Below, in pieces: positions 3,559 through 17,373 of a stretch of 25,753 bases of DNA. The notes below the pieces were generated by a model that saw only the letters and a list, made by a program, of their open reading frames with translations, did not search any database and had not been told where the DNA came from. The position numbers and the translations under genes are program-made. This DNA is from a virus: IMG/VR virus record IMGVR_UViG_3300010354_000568, positions 1 to 25,753 of that record. One strand, written 5' to 3'. The first letter of the stretch is position 1. Every line of letters begins with the position of its first letter.

Positions 3559-4566
3559 ATGAATGGATTGACTGAATTATTTTTTGATCGTTCTAATGAC
3601 ATAAAGTATGAGAATCTGGCCGACGTAGACATGCTACCTAATGGCAAGCCTGCTCGCAGCTGGATGAAAGACTGGAGTCAAGAAGAGAGGACTGAGAAGT
3701 TTTTCGAGTTCTGTCGAGCATACGACAAGCGAGAAGACTCTCTACTCGCCGAGAACTATCAACAGTTCTCTCATCGACTTCACTGGGACGAGTGTCCATT
3801 CGTAGACACTCTCAAGACTAATAACGACCCAGAGATGGTGCTTCACGCCTGTCTCCTCTTCTCTTTCACGAACGAACACTGGCAGACCTTTCTTGCTTGG
3901 AAAGAGGGGTATAACACTGGCTTACGCGAGTACCTCTATGAGGGCAATCGTCCATGTCGTTCAGACCTCTTTCAGATCTACTACCCGAAGGGTACCATAG
4001 TAGAAGAATGGTTGCTCGCTGGTCCTCAGAAGGCAGCTAAGGCTCTTCATCACGTTCTTGGTTCTAAGAATCGTCCGTTCACTATGATGGAGTTCGCCAA
4101 GATCCTCAACGAGCACTTCGTCACCGAGCAAGGATTCCGCAATGCCATGTATCCCTGCAAGAACGCGGCTCGGCACGTAGCCATGTCTCATCCTGAGTGG
4201 GTAGATCCCGAGAGCTTCTTACACGGCGGCACCGGCTTCTTCGATGGACTCCAACAGGTATTCGACTGCCCTCCTCTCATGAGCAAGGTGAAGTACGAGA
4301 TCGAGCCGGATGGAAGTTACGTTGCTCTTAATAAACACGGTGTACAGTTTATGAAGCACATGATATACTTAGCAAATCATAAGTCGAATCCAATAGTTAG
4401 ACAGAAGTTCCTCAACCTCGAGGATAAGCTCTGCTTCTTCTACAAGCACATCGCCATCACTCAAGGCATCAAGCAGACGACGAAGCAGATACCCTACGAG
4501 TGGGTGTATCCGAGAGAGTGGTCTCTCAAGACAAACAAGTATGATAGGTTAGAGAATGTCGCATGA
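3559..4566 (+). CDS. Second aGPT-pyrophosphorylase-like / DNA glycosylase-like helical protein
   Basis: The 335-residue product has the same general character as the gene at 2003: long helical stretches, many Trp, Phe and Tyr, no membrane segments. The region around residues 210-235 (HPEWVDPESFLHGGTGFFDGLQQVF) matches the W..P..F..GGTG...GL pattern of the HMUDK/aGPT helical domain. The C-terminal LEDKLCFFYKH resembles the E..LC.Y.K.. helix of that group. The start ATG 3559 has only a weak ribosome-binding site (AGAAAG). The 3' end overlaps the PLP-enzyme gene by 11 nt, implying coupled translation. A role in activating or exchanging substituents on a hydroxymethyl base is an inference from context. 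A structural, non-catalytic role is possible. Confidence 0.42.
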   Translation: MNGLTELFFDRSNDIKYENLADVDMLPNGKPARSWMKDWSQEERTEKFFEFCRAYDKREDSLLAENYQQFSHRLHWDECPFVDTLKTNNDPEMVLHACLLFSFTNEHWQTFLAWKEGYNTGLREYLYEGNRPCRSDLFQIYYPKGTIVEEWLLAGPQKAAKALHHVLGSKNRPFTMMEFAKILNEHFVTEQGFRNAMYPCKNAARHVAMSHPEWVDPESFLHGGTGFFDGLQQVFDCPPLMSKVKYEIEPDGSYVALNKHGVQFMKHMIYLANHKSNPIVRQKFLNLEDKLCFFYKHIAITQGIKQTTKQIPYEWVYPREWSLKTNKYDRLENVA

Positions 4567-5443
4567 TACGCACGTCATCGATGGAGTCAACAAGGACGCC
4601 CTGCTCTGGCCGGGTTGTACGTATGAGGAGGCCCGCGAGTACTACCTGAATCTCGCGGCGGGCTGGACTCCGTACAACCCGGATCCAGTAGTCGTAGAGC
4701 ACGAGGGAGTGCGTGTAGTCAGAGACGACTTGATCGTCGGCACCAAGACTAGGGCCGGCGACTTACTCGCGTCTAGGATCAATCATCAGACGATAGTGTA
4801 CTCGCAGCCTCGCACGGGTCTTGCAGGCGTCTCTATCCTAGACGTGGCCAAGCACCACAATAAGAGAGTCGTGCTGTTCATGCCGGCCTCGCAGACCGTA
4901 TCACTACATCAGGCGTGTTGCATCGAGCGAGGAGCGGAGGTGCACTTCAAGCGCATCGCTGCCATGCCTATCCTCAACAAGTACGCATCGGAGTGGGCAG
5001 ACGACAATGACGCATTCTTCGTACCCCTTGGACTCAAGCACGAGCTCGCTACTGCTGGTATCGTTCATGCTGCTAGTAAGATCGATCCTCCTGACGAGGT
5101 CTACGTCGCCATATCTACTGGCGTACTGTCTAGAGCCCTTCAGATCGCTTGGCCCGACGCTAAGTTCACGTGCGTGGCTGTCGCTCGAAATCTCAAGGCT
5201 GGAGAGCTTGGAAGAGCTGATGTCATCTCAGAGCCCCTGCCCTTTACTACTCCTGAGAAGGCAGCTAATATGCCTCCATTCCCTGCGATATCTACCTACG
5301 ACGCGAAGGTCTGGAAGTACATTCCGAAGAACACCGGACGCAATGTCCTGATGTGGAACGTCGGTGCTGAACCCGCGTTGACAAATTCGGCTATATATGA
5401 TACGATCGATTCCTACCGTGACTGGGACAAGAATTTGAAATGA
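4556..5443 (+). CDS. Fold-type II PLP-dependent enzyme (ACC deaminase / tryptophan synthase beta-like)
   Basis: The 295-residue product begins like D-cysteine desulfhydrase/ACC deaminase proteins: VVRDDLIVGTKTRAGDLL (54-71) aligns with the R-E-D..GGNKTRKL segment in which the Lys (K64 here) forms the PLP Schiff base. SQPRTGLAGVSILDVAKHHNKRVVLFMP corresponds to the substrate-binding S.[GN]..G segment and the following helix and strand. ERGAEVHF is the typical next strand. Fold-type II PLP enzymes occur in phage DNA hypermodification clusters, where they process amino-acid-derived base substituents. Here the gene lies between the aGPT-like and SGNH-like genes with overlapping ends. The substrate cannot be read from sequence; a free amino acid or a base-linked amino acid are both plausible. 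Confidence 0.65.
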   Translation: MSHDTHVIDGVNKDALLWPGCTYEEAREYYLNLAAGWTPYNPDPVVVEHEGVRVVRDDLIVGTKTRAGDLLASRINHQTIVYSQPRTGLAGVSILDVAKHHNKRVVLFMPASQTVSLHQACCIERGAEVHFKRIAAMPILNKYASEWADDNDAFFVPLGLKHELATAGIVHAASKIDPPDEVYVAISTGVLSRALQIAWPDAKFTCVAVARNLKAGELGRADVISEPLPFTTPEKAANMPPFPAISTYDAKVWKYIPKNTGRNVLMWNVGAEPALTNSAIYDTIDSYRDWDKNLK

Positions 5444-6510
5444 GCGCACTCGTAGCAACCCCCTTCATCACCATCGCCAGTAACTTGAGCAGCCATCGCG
5501 CGGCACAAGGCGTCATCTATGCCGATCAGCTGAAGCAGTCTGGCAAAGACGTCACCGTGAATATGACTCTAGAATTCTATCAGCACGACTTCAACAAGTT
5601 CGATGAGCTGTACGTCTATCACGGCAACGACTGGTCTGGCCACCTCAATCTGTTCGGTGGATTGAAGGAGTTTCCCTACATCGACAACTTCGTGAACTTC
5701 TCCAAGTTCAAGGGCAAGGTCTACTCGCTGATGATCCCGCATCCCGACTACTATGCGGATCTACAACACAAGATGAAGTTGATGAAGGAGAAGAACAAAG
5801 AGATCAATCCACTGTGGGATGAGGTGGACTGGCCCAATCTCCAGCGCATGATACAGACGGCCGAGGTGGTCAATCCTAACGAGCTCGTGTTATACGACAA
5901 GGCTGCCATGGGCGACAGCCACGCCATCTGCATGTATCGTCCAGGCTGGATGCTCAACTCGGTTCCCTTCAAGACTCTGCACGGTGCTCTGAAGATAGGC
6001 CTCGACAGCTTCTTCCCTACTGACAAGGTGAAGTTCAAGCAGCTCGAGTACTACTTCGGCAATATCGACATTCGCCATCACCTGATGCGCCAGCCAGATC
6101 CAGAAGTAGCCACACGCGACCTCGTGAAGAACTACTTTGATGCAGCCAAGAGAATCGCTGAACACACCGACGCAGGAGTCAAGATCTACGAGCCACTGCC
6201 TATAGAGAATGAGTCTCGCTCCATTCCAAAGACCGGATGGTACGAGGGCACACCATTCTATGGCACGTGGGATGAGCGCGACAACATTCGCAACGTCTTC
6301 ATCGACGAGGCCATCAAGCAGCAGGGCAATGGAGTCACGCTATTCAGGTGGTGTGAGAAGCTGAAGAACAACAAGGGCGAGCTCGACTTCAAATACATGG
6401 AGAAGCCGCAGTCGGTCCACCTGTCTCGAGAGTTCTATCCTCACTGGCAGGGAAGAGAATACAACGAGAAGAAGCATCAGGCCAACACAGTTATGGGACT
6501 ATTCGCATGA
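5440..6510 (+). CDS. SGNH-like protein of a phage DNA-modification cluster
   Basis: The 356-residue product has an internal GDSH (about 158-161) following a hydrophobic strand (ELVLYDKAAM), and YFGNIDIRHH (about 205-214) about 45 residues later. A C-terminal HLSREFYPHW segment follows. Order and spacing resemble the GDS(H), G.ND and D..H blocks of SGNH/GDSL hydrolases, but the catalytic assignment is uncertain. The N-terminal 150 residues have no recognisable motif. The gene is coupled by ATGA on both sides, between a PLP enzyme and a C5-methyltransferase-fold enzyme. In this setting it could attach, trim or transfer a group on a modified base, for example as an amino acid:DNA transferase-like enzyme. 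That function is inference. Confidence 0.5.
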   Translation: MSALVATPFITIASNLSSHRAAQGVIYADQLKQSGKDVTVNMTLEFYQHDFNKFDELYVYHGNDWSGHLNLFGGLKEFPYIDNFVNFSKFKGKVYSLMIPHPDYYADLQHKMKLMKEKNKEINPLWDEVDWPNLQRMIQTAEVVNPNELVLYDKAAMGDSHAICMYRPGWMLNSVPFKTLHGALKIGLDSFFPTDKVKFKQLEYYFGNIDIRHHLMRQPDPEVATRDLVKNYFDAAKRIAEHTDAGVKIYEPLPIENESRSIPKTGWYEGTPFYGTWDERDNIRNVFIDEAIKQQGNGVTLFRWCEKLKNNKGELDFKYMEKPQSVHLSREFYPHWQGREYNEKKHQANTVMGLFA

Positions 6511-7730
6511 GTGGAATATCGCACGCTACCATCATACCGCTCATCGGTGGTGAGGCTCTCGCCTCCACTGAGGTGTTCGGGACGAGACCTGAGTACATCC
6601 TGTCTTATGAGGCATTCGCCGCCAACGAGAAGCACCTGCTCAACTACTGGAACCACGAAGTCCCGTACTACGTGCTAGACAAGGGAGGCAGCCACCCGCA
6701 TCGAGTCGACGTAGTCTCCTCGGTATGTCCATGTGCCGGCCTGTCTCTGTTCTCGATGGGATACGGAGAGCACAACCCCAACAACCAGTGGATGATCAAG
6801 ACCGCCGAGTACGTACTAGGTGAGATGAAGCCTAAGGTGTTCTGGGGTGAGAACGCTCCGACGTTCGTAGGCAAGATCGGCGAGCCTATTCGCAAGCAGC
6901 TCATCGAGATCGGTCGCAGGAACGGGTACACCATGACCATGTATCGCACCAAGAGCCTGCTGCACGGAGTTCCTCAGGTCCGCGAGCGTACGTTCTACTT
7001 CTTCTGGCAGGACACCAAGGTACCCGAGCTCGGCTACTATCGCAGGCCCTACACTCGCATCGAGGACGTCATCCTCGGTGTGAAGTCTAACTCGCAGATG
7101 GAGCCCATCAACAAGAACACCCCCACCAAGGATCCCTACTACCGGTATCTGCTCGAAGTCATCAATGGAGGCATGACGCATCGTCAGCACTTCGACGCTC
7201 TCGACACCGACAAGATCGCTACTCGCTACCTCGACGCCAAGAGCCTGATCGAGTGGCACGGTCACTCTTACAAGCAGGTCGGCGAGTGGATGGCCAAGGA
7301 GGGTTACGAGAAGGAAGTAGAGAAGTGTGATCGCATGTTCAAGAAGTTGGACGATGGCGGCAACATCATGCGCCGTGGCACCATCGTGCCTAAGGACCAC
7401 ATCGGCGCCTTCGTCGGACACTATCCTAAGATGCTGACCCACCCGCACGAGGACAGGTATATAACATACAGGGAGGCGATGACCATCATGGGTCTGCCCT
7501 CCGACTACGAGCTACTGTCTCCCACTCAGAGCTACAATCACATCTGTCAGAACGTGCCGTACCAGACGGCGGTAGACATGGCCACAGAAGTGAAGGCGGT
7601 TCTGGAGGGTAAGAGAAACTACATCGACGCCAAGTTGGTCCTTCAGCACAATCACGGCCAGACGGTGGAGATCCTCGATAGAGATGATACGCCGAGTCTC
7701 GAGAGTTTCTTTGATGGAGTAGCCGCGTGA
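6507..7730 (+). CDS. Cytosine-C5 DNA methyltransferase-fold protein
   Basis: The 407-residue protein carries the C5-MTase motifs in order. IPLIGGEALAS (10-20) is a degenerate motif I for S-adenosylmethionine. CPCAGLS (74-80) is motif IV with the catalytic Cys76. GENAP (114-118) is motif VI with the essential Glu, and HGVPQVRERTF (153-163) is motif VIII (Q.R.R). The C-terminal TYREAMTIMGLP and HICQNVPYQTA correspond to motifs IX and X. Motif I lacks the usual F.G.GG.., and PCQ is PCA. The residues between motifs VIII and IX would be the target-recognition region. It sits in the middle of the modification operon (ATGA overlap upstream, GTGA downstream). It could methylate cytosine or have been recruited to another C5 chemistry. 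Confidence 0.8.
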   Translation: MSGISHATIIPLIGGEALASTEVFGTRPEYILSYEAFAANEKHLLNYWNHEVPYYVLDKGGSHPHRVDVVSSVCPCAGLSLFSMGYGEHNPNNQWMIKTAEYVLGEMKPKVFWGENAPTFVGKIGEPIRKQLIEIGRRNGYTMTMYRTKSLLHGVPQVRERTFYFFWQDTKVPELGYYRRPYTRIEDVILGVKSNSQMEPINKNTPTKDPYYRYLLEVINGGMTHRQHFDALDTDKIATRYLDAKSLIEWHGHSYKQVGEWMAKEGYEKEVEKCDRMFKKLDDGGNIMRRGTIVPKDHIGAFVGHYPKMLTHPHEDRYITYREAMTIMGLPSDYELLSPTQSYNHICQNVPYQTAVDMATEVKAVLEGKRNYIDAKLVLQHNHGQTVEILDRDDTPSLESFFDGVAA

Positions 7731-11533: not shown

Positions 11534-11563
11534 ATAGCAATGTAATCAGTGGAGAGATACATC

Positions 11564-12505
11564 ATGAATACCAGTGACAACCCTATGTGGGTAGAGAAGT
11601 ACCGTCCGCGTAAGATCGAGGACTGCGTACTCCCTTCCGACCTCAAGAATACCTTCCAACAGTTCGTAGACAACAAGCACGTACCCAATCTCCTCCTGTC
11701 TGGCTCTGCCGGCGTGGGTAAGACCACCGTCGCCAAGGCCATGCTGGAGGAGCTCGGGTGCGACTACATCGTGATCAACGGGAGTATGAATGGCAACATC
11801 GACACTCTTCGGAACGACATCCTCCAGTTCGCTTCTTCCGTATCTTTCTCAGGCGGAAGGAAGTACGTCATTCTGGACGAGGCAGACTACCTCAACCCTA
11901 ACAGCACACAGCCCGCCCTCCGTAACTTCATGGAGGAGTACTCGCGTAACTGTGGGTTCATCCTCACCTGCAACTTCAAGAACCGCATCATTGAACCTCT
12001 GCATTCGAGGTGTTCCGTCGTGGAGTTCAAGATCGCTAAGAGTGACCTTGCCAAGCTGGCTGGACAGTTCTTCAAGCGAGTCGAGTCCATTCTCGCTGGT
12101 GAGGGAATCACTTATGACAAGGCTGTGGTGGCAGAGGTCGTCAAGAAGCACATTCCTGACTGGCGTCGAGTTCTAAACGAGCTGCAGCGCTACTCGGCCA
12201 CCGGCAAGATCGACTCCGGTATACTGAGCAATCTCGGAGACGAGAACTTCAAGAAGCTGATCGGCTACCTCAAGGCCAAGAGCTTCAACGACATGCGTAA
12301 GTGGGTCGTGGAGAACGCCGACTCTGACACCGCCGTGTTTCGAAAGGTGTACGATCACGCTCACGACATCCTCAAGCCCAACTCCATTCCTCAAGTCGTC
12401 CTGCTCATCGCAGACTACCAGTACAAGGCCGCGTTCGTCTCCGATCCTGAGATCAACCTGGCCGCGTTCTTGACCACCCTCATGGTAGAGGCGGAGTTTG
12501 CATGA
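11564..12505 (+). CDS. 44: Clamp loader large subunit, AAA+ ATPase (T4 gp44-like)
   Basis: The 313-residue AAA+ protein opens and loads the gp45 clamp on primer-template DNA. It begins with the family signature WVEKYRPRKIEDCVLP (9-24). Walker A is GSAGVGKTT (47-55), Walker B ILDEADYL (103-110), sensor 1 is in FILTCNF (132-138), and the arginine-finger SRC sits at 148-150. Start ATG 11564 follows GGAGA; an upstream in-frame start at 11549 overlaps that ribosome-binding site and is rejected. The length is close to T4 gp44 (319 aa). The stop overlaps the gp62 start by ATGA. Confidence 0.96.
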   Translation: MNTSDNPMWVEKYRPRKIEDCVLPSDLKNTFQQFVDNKHVPNLLLSGSAGVGKTTVAKAMLEELGCDYIVINGSMNGNIDTLRNDILQFASSVSFSGGRKYVILDEADYLNPNSTQPALRNFMEEYSRNCGFILTCNFKNRIIEPLHSRCSVVEFKIAKSDLAKLAGQFFKRVESILAGEGITYDKAVVAEVVKKHIPDWRRVLNELQRYSATGKIDSGILSNLGDENFKKLIGYLKAKSFNDMRKWVVENADSDTAVFRKVYDHAHDILKPNSIPQVVLLIADYQYKAAFVSDPEINLAAFLTTLMVEAEFA

Positions 12506-15355: not shown

Positions 15356-15562
15356 ATGGCAGTTCACTTCGTTGGTTTTCGCGGCGACGAGTACACTCGA
15401 GCCTGCCGCACTTTCGGTTCGCCGGACTTCATCCATCGTGGATGGGACTTGCGGGCTCAGCGAGAGATCGCAACGGGAGACATCGTCGTCTTTGCTACTG
15501 GATCGTTCGATCAGGTTCCTCGGCGACAGTCTTTTAACGATCTCGACGAAAAAGGCAGTTGA
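15356..15562 (+). CDS. 68-residue hypothetical protein
   Basis: ATG 15356 has a GGAGTA ribosome-binding site. The product (MAVHFVGFRGDEYTRACRTF, then FIHRGWDLRAQREIATGDIVVFATG) looks like a compact beta-alpha domain: a hydrophobic first strand, an acidic/Arg stretch and a late hydrophobic strand ending in FATG. No family was recognised. The stop overlaps the TTGACA box that starts the RNA island. Read-through of the upstream terminator or an unseen promoter would be needed for expression. Confidence 0.72.
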   Translation: MAVHFVGFRGDEYTRACRTFGSPDFIHRGWDLRAQREIATGDIVVFATGSFDQVPRRQSFNDLDEKGS

Positions 15563-15588
15563 CATTTTCTGGTCGACTGTTGTATAAG
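15559..15588 (+). promoter_or_regulatory. Promoter at the head of the structured-RNA/tRNA island
   Basis: TTGACA (15559-15564), T run, then TATAAG (15583-15588; spacer 18, or 17 to GTATAA). It overlaps the stop of the upstream gene and is the only strong promoter before the 550-nt structured RNA and the first tRNAs, so it is the likely start of their precursor transcript. Confidence 0.75.
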
Positions 15589-15600
15589 AGAAGAATAGGT

Positions 15601-15670
15601 GCTCGGCCGATACCGAGCGAACTCGACCGGTACGTGGACTCGAATGAGCGTACAAGTGGTTTCCGGCGAG
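15601..15670 (+). ncRNA. 5' structured leader of the RNA island
   Basis: GCTCGG/CCGAGC (15601-15606 / 15613-15618) forms a 6-bp hairpin. A second folded element has CTCG/CGAG (15622-15625 / 15667-15670), CCGG/CCGG (15627-15630 / 15663-15666) and GTACG/CGTAC (15630-15634 / 15649-15653). It begins at the predicted transcript 5' end. Function is unknown. Confidence 0.5.
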
Positions 15671-15673
15671 GTC

Positions 15674-15842
15674 ATTCTTATCTCTTCAGATATGCACCGG
15701 GGCGTCGGGATCCCGCCCTTGTGTTGGTCACAGTCTATGATTGTGATCAGTTGGTCACAGCTCCGCCTACGGGCATGCGGGTTTACTCGCTAGAGGGTCG
15801 TCGGTTCGAATCCGTCGGGTGCATATCTGAAGTGATAAGAGT
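15674..15842 (+). ncRNA. Long-stem tRNA-like RNA domain A
   Basis: Arms 15677-15698 and 15818-15839 form a helix of 22 positions with one U-U mismatch, extendable by 2-3 pairs. Inside, GGGCG/CGCCC gives a D-arm-like hairpin. TTGTG/CACAG encloses TTGGT, and a T-arm-like GGTTCGAATCC lies at the position expected next to an acceptor stem. A direct repeat TTGGTCACAG occurs twice (about 15724 and 15750), so CACA/TGTG and TGTGA/TCACA hairpins compete. There is no normal anticodon arm and no CCA end. The long stem resembles precursor stems cleaved by RNase III. See also domain B, which is its paralogue. Confidence 0.7.
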
Positions 15843-15844
15843 AG

Positions 15845-16007
15845 ACTCTCTTCGTCTGTGGTTGATAGGTCAATGGCCATGACCAATACTGAACGTAGTT
15901 TACAACAGTGAAAACGGTGACCTTAGTATCTTCCTCTGACGAAGTGAAAAGTGATCAGAGCGTTGGTGCAACTCCAACCGGCAGTTTCAACTACAGACGA
16001 AGAGAGT
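15845..16007 (+). ncRNA. Long-stem structured RNA domain M (between the tRNA-like domains)
   Basis: Arms 15846-15865 and 15987-16006 pair over 20 positions with a single G-U, plus A15845-T16007. The interior is a multi-branch loop. Hairpins are GGTCA/TGACC with a 7-nt loop, ATACT/AGTAT, CTCTGA/TCAGAG, and GTTGG TGCAACT CCAAC (5 bp, 7-nt loop). The last, nearest the closing helix, resembles in position and shape the T arm of a tRNA and shares its TGCAA loop with the RNA at 17241. No reading frame with a ribosome-binding site fits here. Confidence 0.68.
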
Positions 16008-16009
16008 AA

Positions 16010-16136
16010 CTTATCACTTCAGATATGCACCAGGGCGCCAGTAGCTACCGCCCCTGTGTAGGTCACAGTCGCGCTCCGTATGGGGCGTTCAAGGTGGACG
16101 GCTTCGAAACCGTCGGTGCATATCTGAAGTGATAAG
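16010..16136 (+). ncRNA. Long-stem tRNA-like RNA domain B
   Basis: Arms 16010-16031 and 16115-16136 form a perfect 22-bp inverted repeat. The inner 7 bp (ATGCACC/GGTGCAT) occupy the acceptor position. They are followed by a D-arm-like GGGCG/CGCCC, CTGTG/CACAG enclosing TAGGT, a variable-arm-like CGCTCC/GGGGCG, and a T-arm-like GACGG/CCGTC with TTCGAA in the loop. The CTGTG hairpin has a 5-nt loop, so there is no usable anticodon. The D loop lacks GG. It is a paralogue of domain A with nearly identical arms and the same YTGTG-TWGGT-CACAG core. It ends 5 nt before tRNA-Lys. Confidence 0.72.
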
Positions 16137-16141
16137 ACAAC

Positions 16142-16216
16142 GGACCGGTAGCTCAGCGATAGAGCAGGGGACTCTTAATCCCAAGGCCGTGAGTTTGATC
16201 CTCACCCGGTTCACCA
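16142..16216 (+). tRNA. tRNA-Lys(CTT)
   Basis: Acceptor GGACCGG/CCGGTTC, anticodon loop CTCTTAA (anticodon CTT, codon AAG), A73 and an encoded CCA. First canonical tRNA of the island, 5 nt after domain B. Confidence 0.93.
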
Positions 16217-16217
16217 A

Positions 16218-16300
16218 TTAGAGCGTAGTGTGGGTGGTAGGGCCAACTGTAACAGGGAAACCCCGAGTAGCAACGCGCGCAAAAATACATTACGCTCTAA
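16218..16300 (+). ncRNA. Structured RNA C, 14-bp closing stem
   Basis: TTAGAGCGTAGTGT (16218-16231) pairs with ACATTACGCTCTAA (16287-16300) over 14 positions with one G-U. The 55-nt interior includes GGGAAACCC hairpin material and no tRNA T loop or CCA. It lies between tRNA-Lys (CCA ends 2 nt before) and tRNA-Asp, so RNase Z/P-type processing of its neighbours would release it. Confidence 0.62.
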
Positions 16301-16386: not shown

Positions 16387-16463
16387 CGGAGTGTAGCGCA
16401 GTCTGGTAGCGCATCTGCTTTGGGAGCAGAGGGTCCTGGGTTCGAATCCTAGTACTCCGACCA
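16387..16463 (+). tRNA. tRNA-Pro(TGG)
   Basis: Acceptor CGGAGTG/TACTCCG, anticodon stem TCTGC/GCAGA with loop TTTGGGA (TGG, codon CCA), T loop TTCGAAT, A73 and encoded CCA. Confidence 0.95.
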
Positions 16464-16470
16464 ATTCTAT

Positions 16471-16572
16471 GTCCTCCTAGTGTAATGGTAGCACAGGAAG
16501 TCCGAGACGCCGAGAGGTGGAGTAGGCAGCAAAATGCCAAGATGAGCGTTCGATTCGCTCGGGGGACAACCA
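16471..16572 (+). ncRNA. tRNA-like RNA without an anticodon arm
   Basis: It has acceptor GTCCTCC/GGGGGAC, D arm GTG-TAATGGTAG-CAC and a perfect T arm GAGCG-TTCGATT-CGCTC, and ends in CCA (one extra A before it). Between D and T arms are 49 nt instead of about 22. No 5-bp anticodon stem can be drawn there. The only clear hairpin is GGCA-GCAAAA-TGCC near the T arm. It is either a decayed class II tRNA or a tRNA mimic, sitting 1 nt before tRNA-Trp. Confidence 0.7.
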
Positions 16573-16573
16573 T

Positions 16574-17240: not shown

Positions 17241-17373
17241 GTAGAGTAAGAACGAGGGGATAAGTCAGTTAAGACAGTATCTTCCCCGATGCACCTAGGC
17301 GAAGGGGATAAAAGCCGAAGTGCATGTGATACGGTGGGTGCAATGCCCACGTATCCTCTTGTTCTTACTCTAC
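17241..17373 (+). ncRNA. Structured RNA G, 22-bp stem with tRNA-like cloverleaf interior
   Basis: Arms 17241-17262 and 17352-17373 pair over 22 positions with two G-U pairs and no mismatch. The interior reads as three arms: GTC-AGTTAA-GAC (D-arm position); GTATC/GATAC carrying a long ATGCAC/GTGCAT and GGC/GCC extension (anticodon-arm position); and GTGGG-TGCAATG-CCCAC (5 bp, 7-nt loop, T-arm position). The T-like loop shares TGCAA with RNA M at 15845. There is no CCA and no standard T loop. It ends 7 nt before tRNA-Tyr. Confidence 0.72.

Follow-up and report, generated by a model that had tools for sequence, protein, structure and literature searches.

Immediately upstream of the tRNA array of a T4-like phage, we found a row of independent, exchangeable RNA modules whose long closing stems are kept among relatives while their contents get swapped. 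The window, meaning the whole stretch of DNA analyzed, is a 25.7-kb (25,753 nt) viral fragment, positions 1 to 25,753 of IMGVR_UViG_3300010354_000568. It is T4-like phage DNA, with T4-type replication genes, among them one for a clamp-loader protein (11549-12505) showing 66% identity to that of Stenotrophomonas phage DLP6, and an array of 30 tRNAs starting at 16142. Ahead of the first tRNA lie, in order, a promoter, a leader and domains A, M and B (Table 1).

Table 1. Features of the module locus, in window coordinates.
Feature	Coordinates	Strand	Description
sigma70-type promoter	15559..15588	+	-35 TTGACA 15559-15564, 18-nt spacer, -10 TATAAG 15583-15588; read from sequence
leader	15592..15676	+	from alignment of 7 relatives and fold
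module A	15677..15839	+	closing helix of about 22 pairs with one U.U, arms 15676-15698/15818-15840
module M	15845..16007	+	21-bp closing helix (one G.U), arms 15845-15865/15987-16007; second stem brand
module B	16010..16136	+	perfect 22-bp closing helix, arms 16010-16031/16115-16136; homologues in L006, L008, L012
tRNA-Lys CTT	16142..16216	+	first canonical tRNA of the array, 5 nt past module B
module E	17241..17373	+	fourth domain, 22-bp helix, within the array between tRNA-Ala and tRNA-Tyr

A sequence-only reading of this DNA had proposed a strong promoter at 15559 and a structured leader at 15601, and both proposals held. The promoter elements are present, and in relatives (L006, L008, L014 and L015/L016) the -35 element is kept and the -10 element nearly so, as TATAAG or TAAAAG, with a 17-nt spacer of changed sequence. 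Our promoter scan missed the site because it demanded a T at the last -10 position. The 5' end of the leader (GAAGAAU) could pair with AUUCUU preceding domain A, and its hairpins span 15601-15618 and, for P3, 15622-15670, the latter carrying a conserved GUACAAGUGGUUUCC. P3 shows compensating changes in L008 (CUCGACCGG/CCGGCGAG to CUCGGCUGG/CCAGCGAG), though the leader folded on its own is unremarkable (z -1.2). A put-like antiterminator function for the leader is no more than a conceivable reading.

The three consecutive inverted repeats that the same reading placed at 15677-15839, 15846-16006 and 16010-16136 are all there, the arms of M pairing over 21 positions rather than 20. Modules A and B are tRNA-like, as it had claimed. 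Inside A, a D-arm-like hairpin (GGGCG..CGCCC, 15700-15718) is followed by further hairpins and by a T-arm (15800-15816) that adjoins the 3' arm of the closing helix. Module B, whose closing arms have the same sequence as those of A, encloses a D-arm-like hairpin (GGGCG..CGCCC, 16033-16053), a hairpin CUGUG-UAGGU-CACAG, a long variable-arm-like hairpin and a T-arm with an 8-nt loop (16097-16114), again adjoining the 3' arm. No anticodon arm with a 7-nt loop was recognized in A, B or C (the last a module of a relative, described below), and the GG of the D-loop is absent from B and C. In M, a hairpin with a UGCAA T-loop (15962-15978) stands 8 nt off the closing helix; in E, the T-arm (GUGGG-UGCAAUG-CCCAC, 17334-17350) adjoins the 3' arm directly. 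Compared with dinucleotide shuffles, the folds are unusually stable (z -7.6 for A, -5.7 for M, -8.5 for B and -9.8 for the whole of 15590-16141), and no shuffle folded as well as any of the four.

Relatives were sought with the exact 22-base arm, which occurs in three other viral contigs, and through neighboring proteins, which added more contigs. Wherever a contig extends as far as this locus, it shares the promoter region and the leader, but what precedes the first tRNA varies. A B-type module stands alone in L006 and L012. In L008, an M-type helix (4412-4585) encloses a wholly unlike interior with two T-arm-like hairpins and is followed by B, and L014 has a single 110-nt module, C, alone. 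The M-type helix of L015, L016 (6253-6393) and L017 surrounds a core that ARAGORN calls tRNA-Gln(CUG). We name this module M''; its L016 copy includes an anticodon arm bearing CUG. The locus thus holds one, two or three modules per genome, and from the differing interiors at one position we conclude that the helices are conserved and the contents exchanged. Reading M as a multi-branch domain was correspondingly incomplete, because its stem encloses tRNA-like cores in L008 and L016.

These relatives also bear on the original description of the region as a single RNA of ~550 nt with three domains. An RNA of ~460 nt could form if the 5' arm of A paired with the 3' arm of B and the 3' arm of A with the 5' arm of B, enclosing M; the A and B arms are interchangeable, and the nested fold lies 4.4 kcal/mol below the tandem one (-250.1 versus -245.7 kcal/mol), a slight advantage that arises because A and B have common arm sequences. 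Against this, A would be able to fold fully before B is transcribed, and B, C or M'' occurs alone in relatives. Since the relatives contain just one module or two, and a given stem encloses different interiors, we read the region not as one ornate architecture but as a row of separate modules, and we regard a single large RNA as most improbable.

Comparison of the stems revealed two parts in the A/B/C helix: the outer 11-12 pairs have one common sequence, CUUAUCWCUUC/GAAGUGAUAAG, and in the inner half C differs by four pairs, each changed on both sides. Four pairs of the M helix are likewise changed on both sides among three sequences. The inner end of the common part of the M helix reads UGGU/ACCA in L008 and L016, as if the handle had taken up a discriminator base and CCA as paired positions, and ACUA in the window. 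When the two A/B/C handles were searched for together, with the gap between them limited, the only match was L013, at its C module. The exact arm 22-mer had no match in contigs from 84,980 species of bacteria and archaea, and none of 50,697 phage records contained nucleotide relatives of the three modules or of module E. Two IMG/VR contigs that match the M arm (L160 and L163) have neither the second arm nor a tRNA, look like chance matches, and were set aside.

No known RNA family accounts for the region. Rfam covariance models, RF00005, GOLLD, ROOL and tmRNA included, gave no match over 15559-16136 at gathering threshold or E<=1, so that the failure of the sequence-only reading to match the architecture to GOLLD or ROOL extends to every family searched. 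ARAGORN called no tRNA or tmRNA in the same interval and no tmRNA anywhere in the window.

The arrays of the window and its relatives contain other structured elements. Window 16463-16573, L014 9285-9385, L016 6906-7003 and L008 ~5370-5465 are tRNA-like genes with D-arm, T-arm and CCA but no ARAGORN call, in which the anticodon arm is replaced by a conserved GAAGUCCGAGACGC-GAGA-GYGGRGUAGGC whose GAGA-loop stem appears to covary. A separate element between tRNAs (window 16218-16300, L016 ~6473-6556, L008 from ~5046; core GGGUGGYAGGGCCAACUGUAAYAGGGAAACCCCGA) is present or absent among relatives, and absent in L017. Upstream of a probable tRNA-Tyr lies a conserved structured stretch (L014 10218-10340, L006 4565-4680; ..GCAUUCGAGCCGACCGCGUGAGGCUCAGCAAGUUU) with seemingly compensated changes and no Rfam match at gathering, and downstream of it a conserved intergenic RNA candidate (L014 10425-10560, L006 4770-4880; CUAGA..GGAGRCCUAA..AACAUGAGGG..GGAUUGCU). 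ARAGORN called a tRNA with anticodon CTA at L008 10514-10587 (labelled Pyl), a possible amber-suppressor tRNA. Outside the tRNA region, 1.4-1.9 kb upstream of the array, a 24-25-bp helix surrounds ~45 nt (L006 2361-2454, L008 2469-2562, L009 3512-3605).

Long closing helices recur in tRNA arrays well beyond this locus. A survey script that collected helices scoring 16 or more around 40-220 nt returned 19 from 76.5 kb of tRNA arrays, compared with 10 from 1,220.5 kb of non-array sequence in related contigs, ~30-fold more per base in the arrays, with fewer than 19 independent events since the array count includes homologous copies and one A-B cross-pairing. More distant T4-type contigs (clamp-loader ~70% identical) also have such domains, either 5' of the first tRNA (L055, L063 and L084, in the last upstream of tRNA-Asn) or within arrays (twice in L089, and in L125). 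An alternative pairing exists in L063 (6978-7083) and L084 (20000-20150), where the 5' arm of the helix and the sequence just upstream of it can form a UUCG-capped hairpin (GAAACAAC-UUCG-GUUGUUUC), which could act as a switch. Among isolates, Aeh1 has three long-stem domains, KVP40 three in a row upstream of its tRNAs and Atu_ph07 one; none was found in the arrays of DLP6, S-PM2 or Aeromonas phage 65. Over 21 domains, the closing stem has a median of 22 bp (range 17-33).

Several of these domains already carry a tRNA label. The connection with tRNA is plain in Aeh1, where the acceptor helix reaches 21 pairs in the annotated tRNA-Met(CAU) and 20 in tRNA-Asn; in a 105-nt 'tRNA-Glu' (114904-115008) the helix has 17 pairs, and a long hairpin stands where a normal anticodon arm would be. 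The KVP40 members are kept in 51 Vibrio phage records and the Aeh1 members in 9 phage records; L156 and L158, relatives of Aeh1-3, match RF00005. Exchangeable modules of this kind thus recur in other large phages, familiar laboratory ones included, and appear to make up a widespread class of RNAs that escaped notice or were labelled tRNAs or tRNA pseudogenes; tRNA-finder annotation hides the class under those labels or as blank intergenic DNA. In the KVP40 record, the annotated tRNA-Pseudo-4 and -5 (124 and 113 nt; 180967-181213, L137 10468-10714) look like tRNAs with ~40-50 nt inserted in the anticodon arm. In KVP40-2 and KVP40-3 of Vibrio phages (L148-L155), the anticodon arm is replaced by a conserved CACGUAGCA..hairpin..CAGCAAYCAA..GCAUAUCAU..AGAUCGUG, whose flanking ACG/CGU could form a short stem.

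Covariation was among the checks proposed at the outset, and compensated pairs retain the closing helix in the A/B/C, M and KVP40-3 types. The KVP40-3 family comprises 9 sequences, 7 of them distinct, and its phages are as little as ~74% identical in the region. With the structure read from one member, 99.6% of cells are paired and 18 of 39 pairs have changed on both sides, counts that come from few independent lineages; 0 of 500 shuffles reached this, and slid controls were near zero. The closing helix covaries, and so do the inner hairpin and the T-arm. Across 28 helices, some of them related, the wobble pairs are biased toward the array strand (33 G.U versus 6 A.C), as selection on the RNA of that strand would predict. 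The domains might instead be decaying tRNA genes, or selfish cassettes bounded by terminal inverted repeats, and have no RNA function; some records of KVP40 relatives do label the domains tRNA-OTHER or pseudogene, and the exchange between relatives is cassette-like. The compensating changes, the wobble bias to the sense strand, the conservation across the Vibrio phage records and the retained promoter make such an origin very unlikely.

The T-arm has a preferred place. It adjoins the 3' strand of the closing helix in 10 of the 21 domains (A, B, E, C and six elsewhere), where shuffled interiors predict 0.19. Several long-stem array domains have no T-arm (L063, L055, L125, Atu_ph07, L086 and KVP40-4), so the class may be mixed. 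These proportions are relevant to an alternative that we consider unlikely, in which the helix matters and the interior drifts, the stem serving as a 5' shield and processing entry for the tRNA precursor in the manner of rRNA RNase III stems. It would explain why domains sit 5' of the first tRNA in independent lineages (the clade of the window, L055, L063, L084), why Aeh1-3 is the first element of its array, and why several interiors have no tRNA feature at all. It fits poorly with the copies inside arrays (window 17241, L089, Aeh1-1, Aeh1-2), with the frequent junction of T-arm and helix, and with the interior helices of KVP40-3, which changed on both sides at 4 of 5 T-arm pairs and 5 of 6 pairs of the inner hairpin.

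Ordinary tRNAs in six arrays encode CCA in 149 of 153 cases (window 30/30, L014 29/29, KVP40 28/28, L016 27/28, Aeh1 21/23, L089 14/15). Of the four that do not, L016 Gln, Aeh1 Met and Aeh1 Asn sit in extended stems, and the L089 tRNA-Ser has no such stem. No CCA was found in the 3' arms of A, M, B or E of the window. The absence is not an absolute rule, because KVP40-3 and the M-type of L008 and L016 hold ACCA within the helix.

The reading we favor, with a probability of about 0.5, is that the modules are tRNA-derived RNAs with extended acceptors, excised at their handles by an RNase III-type nuclease to give stable, tRNA-shaped RNAs for a non-decoding role. The region would be the promoter-proximal part of a long tRNA-array transcript encoding three separate modules, each probably a tRNA-like core that keeps the T-arm and often the D-arm, lacks the anticodon arm or has something else in its place, and has its acceptor prolonged to 21-22 bp. 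We envisage the helix in two parts, an inner one that would be the product's acceptor helix and vary with the core, and an outer handle (~11 bp in A/B/C), common to different cores, that would act as a generic excision device. A near-perfect helix two turns long makes a natural substrate for RNase III, and the RNase III processing that the sequence-only reading had suggested is plausible at a median stem of 22 bp. Most likely, a nuclease specific for dsRNA, host RNase III for example, is recruited by the handle and cuts about one helical turn in, a position with which the outer/inner split of the A/B/C helix would coincide. Such a cut would free the module from its precursor, a dsRNA handle standing in for the CCA-dependent 3' maturation of ordinary tRNAs. 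A CCA close to the 3' end of a tRNA precursor affects its cleavage by RNase P (PMC11143913), so a hidden or missing CCA would keep the modules off the normal route.

Because the modules have no anticodon, their role should lie outside decoding. The likeliest one, proposed with low confidence, is that the products occupy a host factor that binds tRNAs, or a defence nuclease directed at them. Of the roles raised by the sequence-only reading, a scaffold or a regulator of tRNA processing would also be conceivable. A rival proposal makes the products decoys that bind or absorb nucleases or sensors attacking tRNAs, which would explain the fast exchange of cores among relatives; defences that target tRNAs, and phage tRNA counter-measures, are documented (PMC10264068, PMC11555353, PMC13096335). 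We consider it doubtful, as no defence system is linked to the modules here and the anticodon arm, the usual target of anticodon nucleases, is missing from most cores. Speculatively, large T4-type and jumbo phages may have a general system of exchangeable anticodon-less tRNA mimics in dsRNA handles, serving as defence decoys or host-factor competitors, with T4 species 1 RNA as a handle-less member. If the extended-acceptor products do act on tRNA-directed defences, they would be a non-decoding counter-defence made of RNA.

Among known systems, GOLLD and ROOL are structured RNAs found near phage tRNA arrays (PMC12286853). The modules differ from both: at 127-163 nt each for A, M and B, they are not one large RNA, and they match no covariance model. 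In tmRNA and YrlA, a tRNA-like T-arm and acceptor are kept and the anticodon part is replaced, but the modules have no Rfam match to them at gathering; KVP40 relatives score weakly with the YrlA model (22.9-28.2 bits against a threshold of 69), and such scores also fall on ordinary T4 tRNAs. Pre-rRNA is released through RNase III stems, long helices formed from both flanks of the RNA to be freed. The modules resemble these in a helix of about two turns or more, and differ in that it encloses a small tRNA-like RNA and in that cleavage here is a prediction.

Among known RNAs, the modules come closest not to GOLLD or ROOL but to T4 species 1 RNA and to those tRNAs of KVP40 and Aeh1 that are unannotated or marked 'pseudo'. 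KVP40 181321-181466 and 181708-181856 and the Aeh1 tRNA-Met, tRNA-Asn and 'tRNA-Glu' have a 17-22 bp helix built from a lengthened acceptor, with the T-arm adjoining. Like the modules, they have a D-arm, lie in or upstream of the array and for the most part do not end in CCA; in several, the anticodon arm has been replaced or enlarged. Unlike those of the window, KVP40-2, KVP40-3 and Aeh1-3 have the handle ACAYAUUG/CAAURUGU, and the cores differ, with no detectable sequence similarity. None of the papers that we found describes these extended-acceptor RNAs as a class.

To our knowledge, T4 species 1 and 2 RNAs have been without a function for about fifty years. A link to species 2 RNA was rejected, as it has no visible T-arm and is not unusually structured (z -0.8). 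T4 species 1 RNA (rnaC, band C) lies at the 3' end of its cluster as a single copy, with a short interrupted closing stem and no common outer handle, and blastn of 15540-16145 against phage records including T4 showed no similarity to it. Like the modules, it is a phage RNA of a T4-type tRNA cluster with a variable-arm-like hairpin and no CCA and, like A, B, C and E, it has a T-arm (CCGGG-UUCGAAU-CCCGG) directly beside the closing stem and no anticodon arm. RNase III has been reported to take part in processing its precursor, and the stable anticodon-less, tRNA-shaped product that we propose would be comparable to it. The comparison ties T4 species 1 RNA to a recurring design whose KVP40 and Aeh1 members are experimentally tractable.
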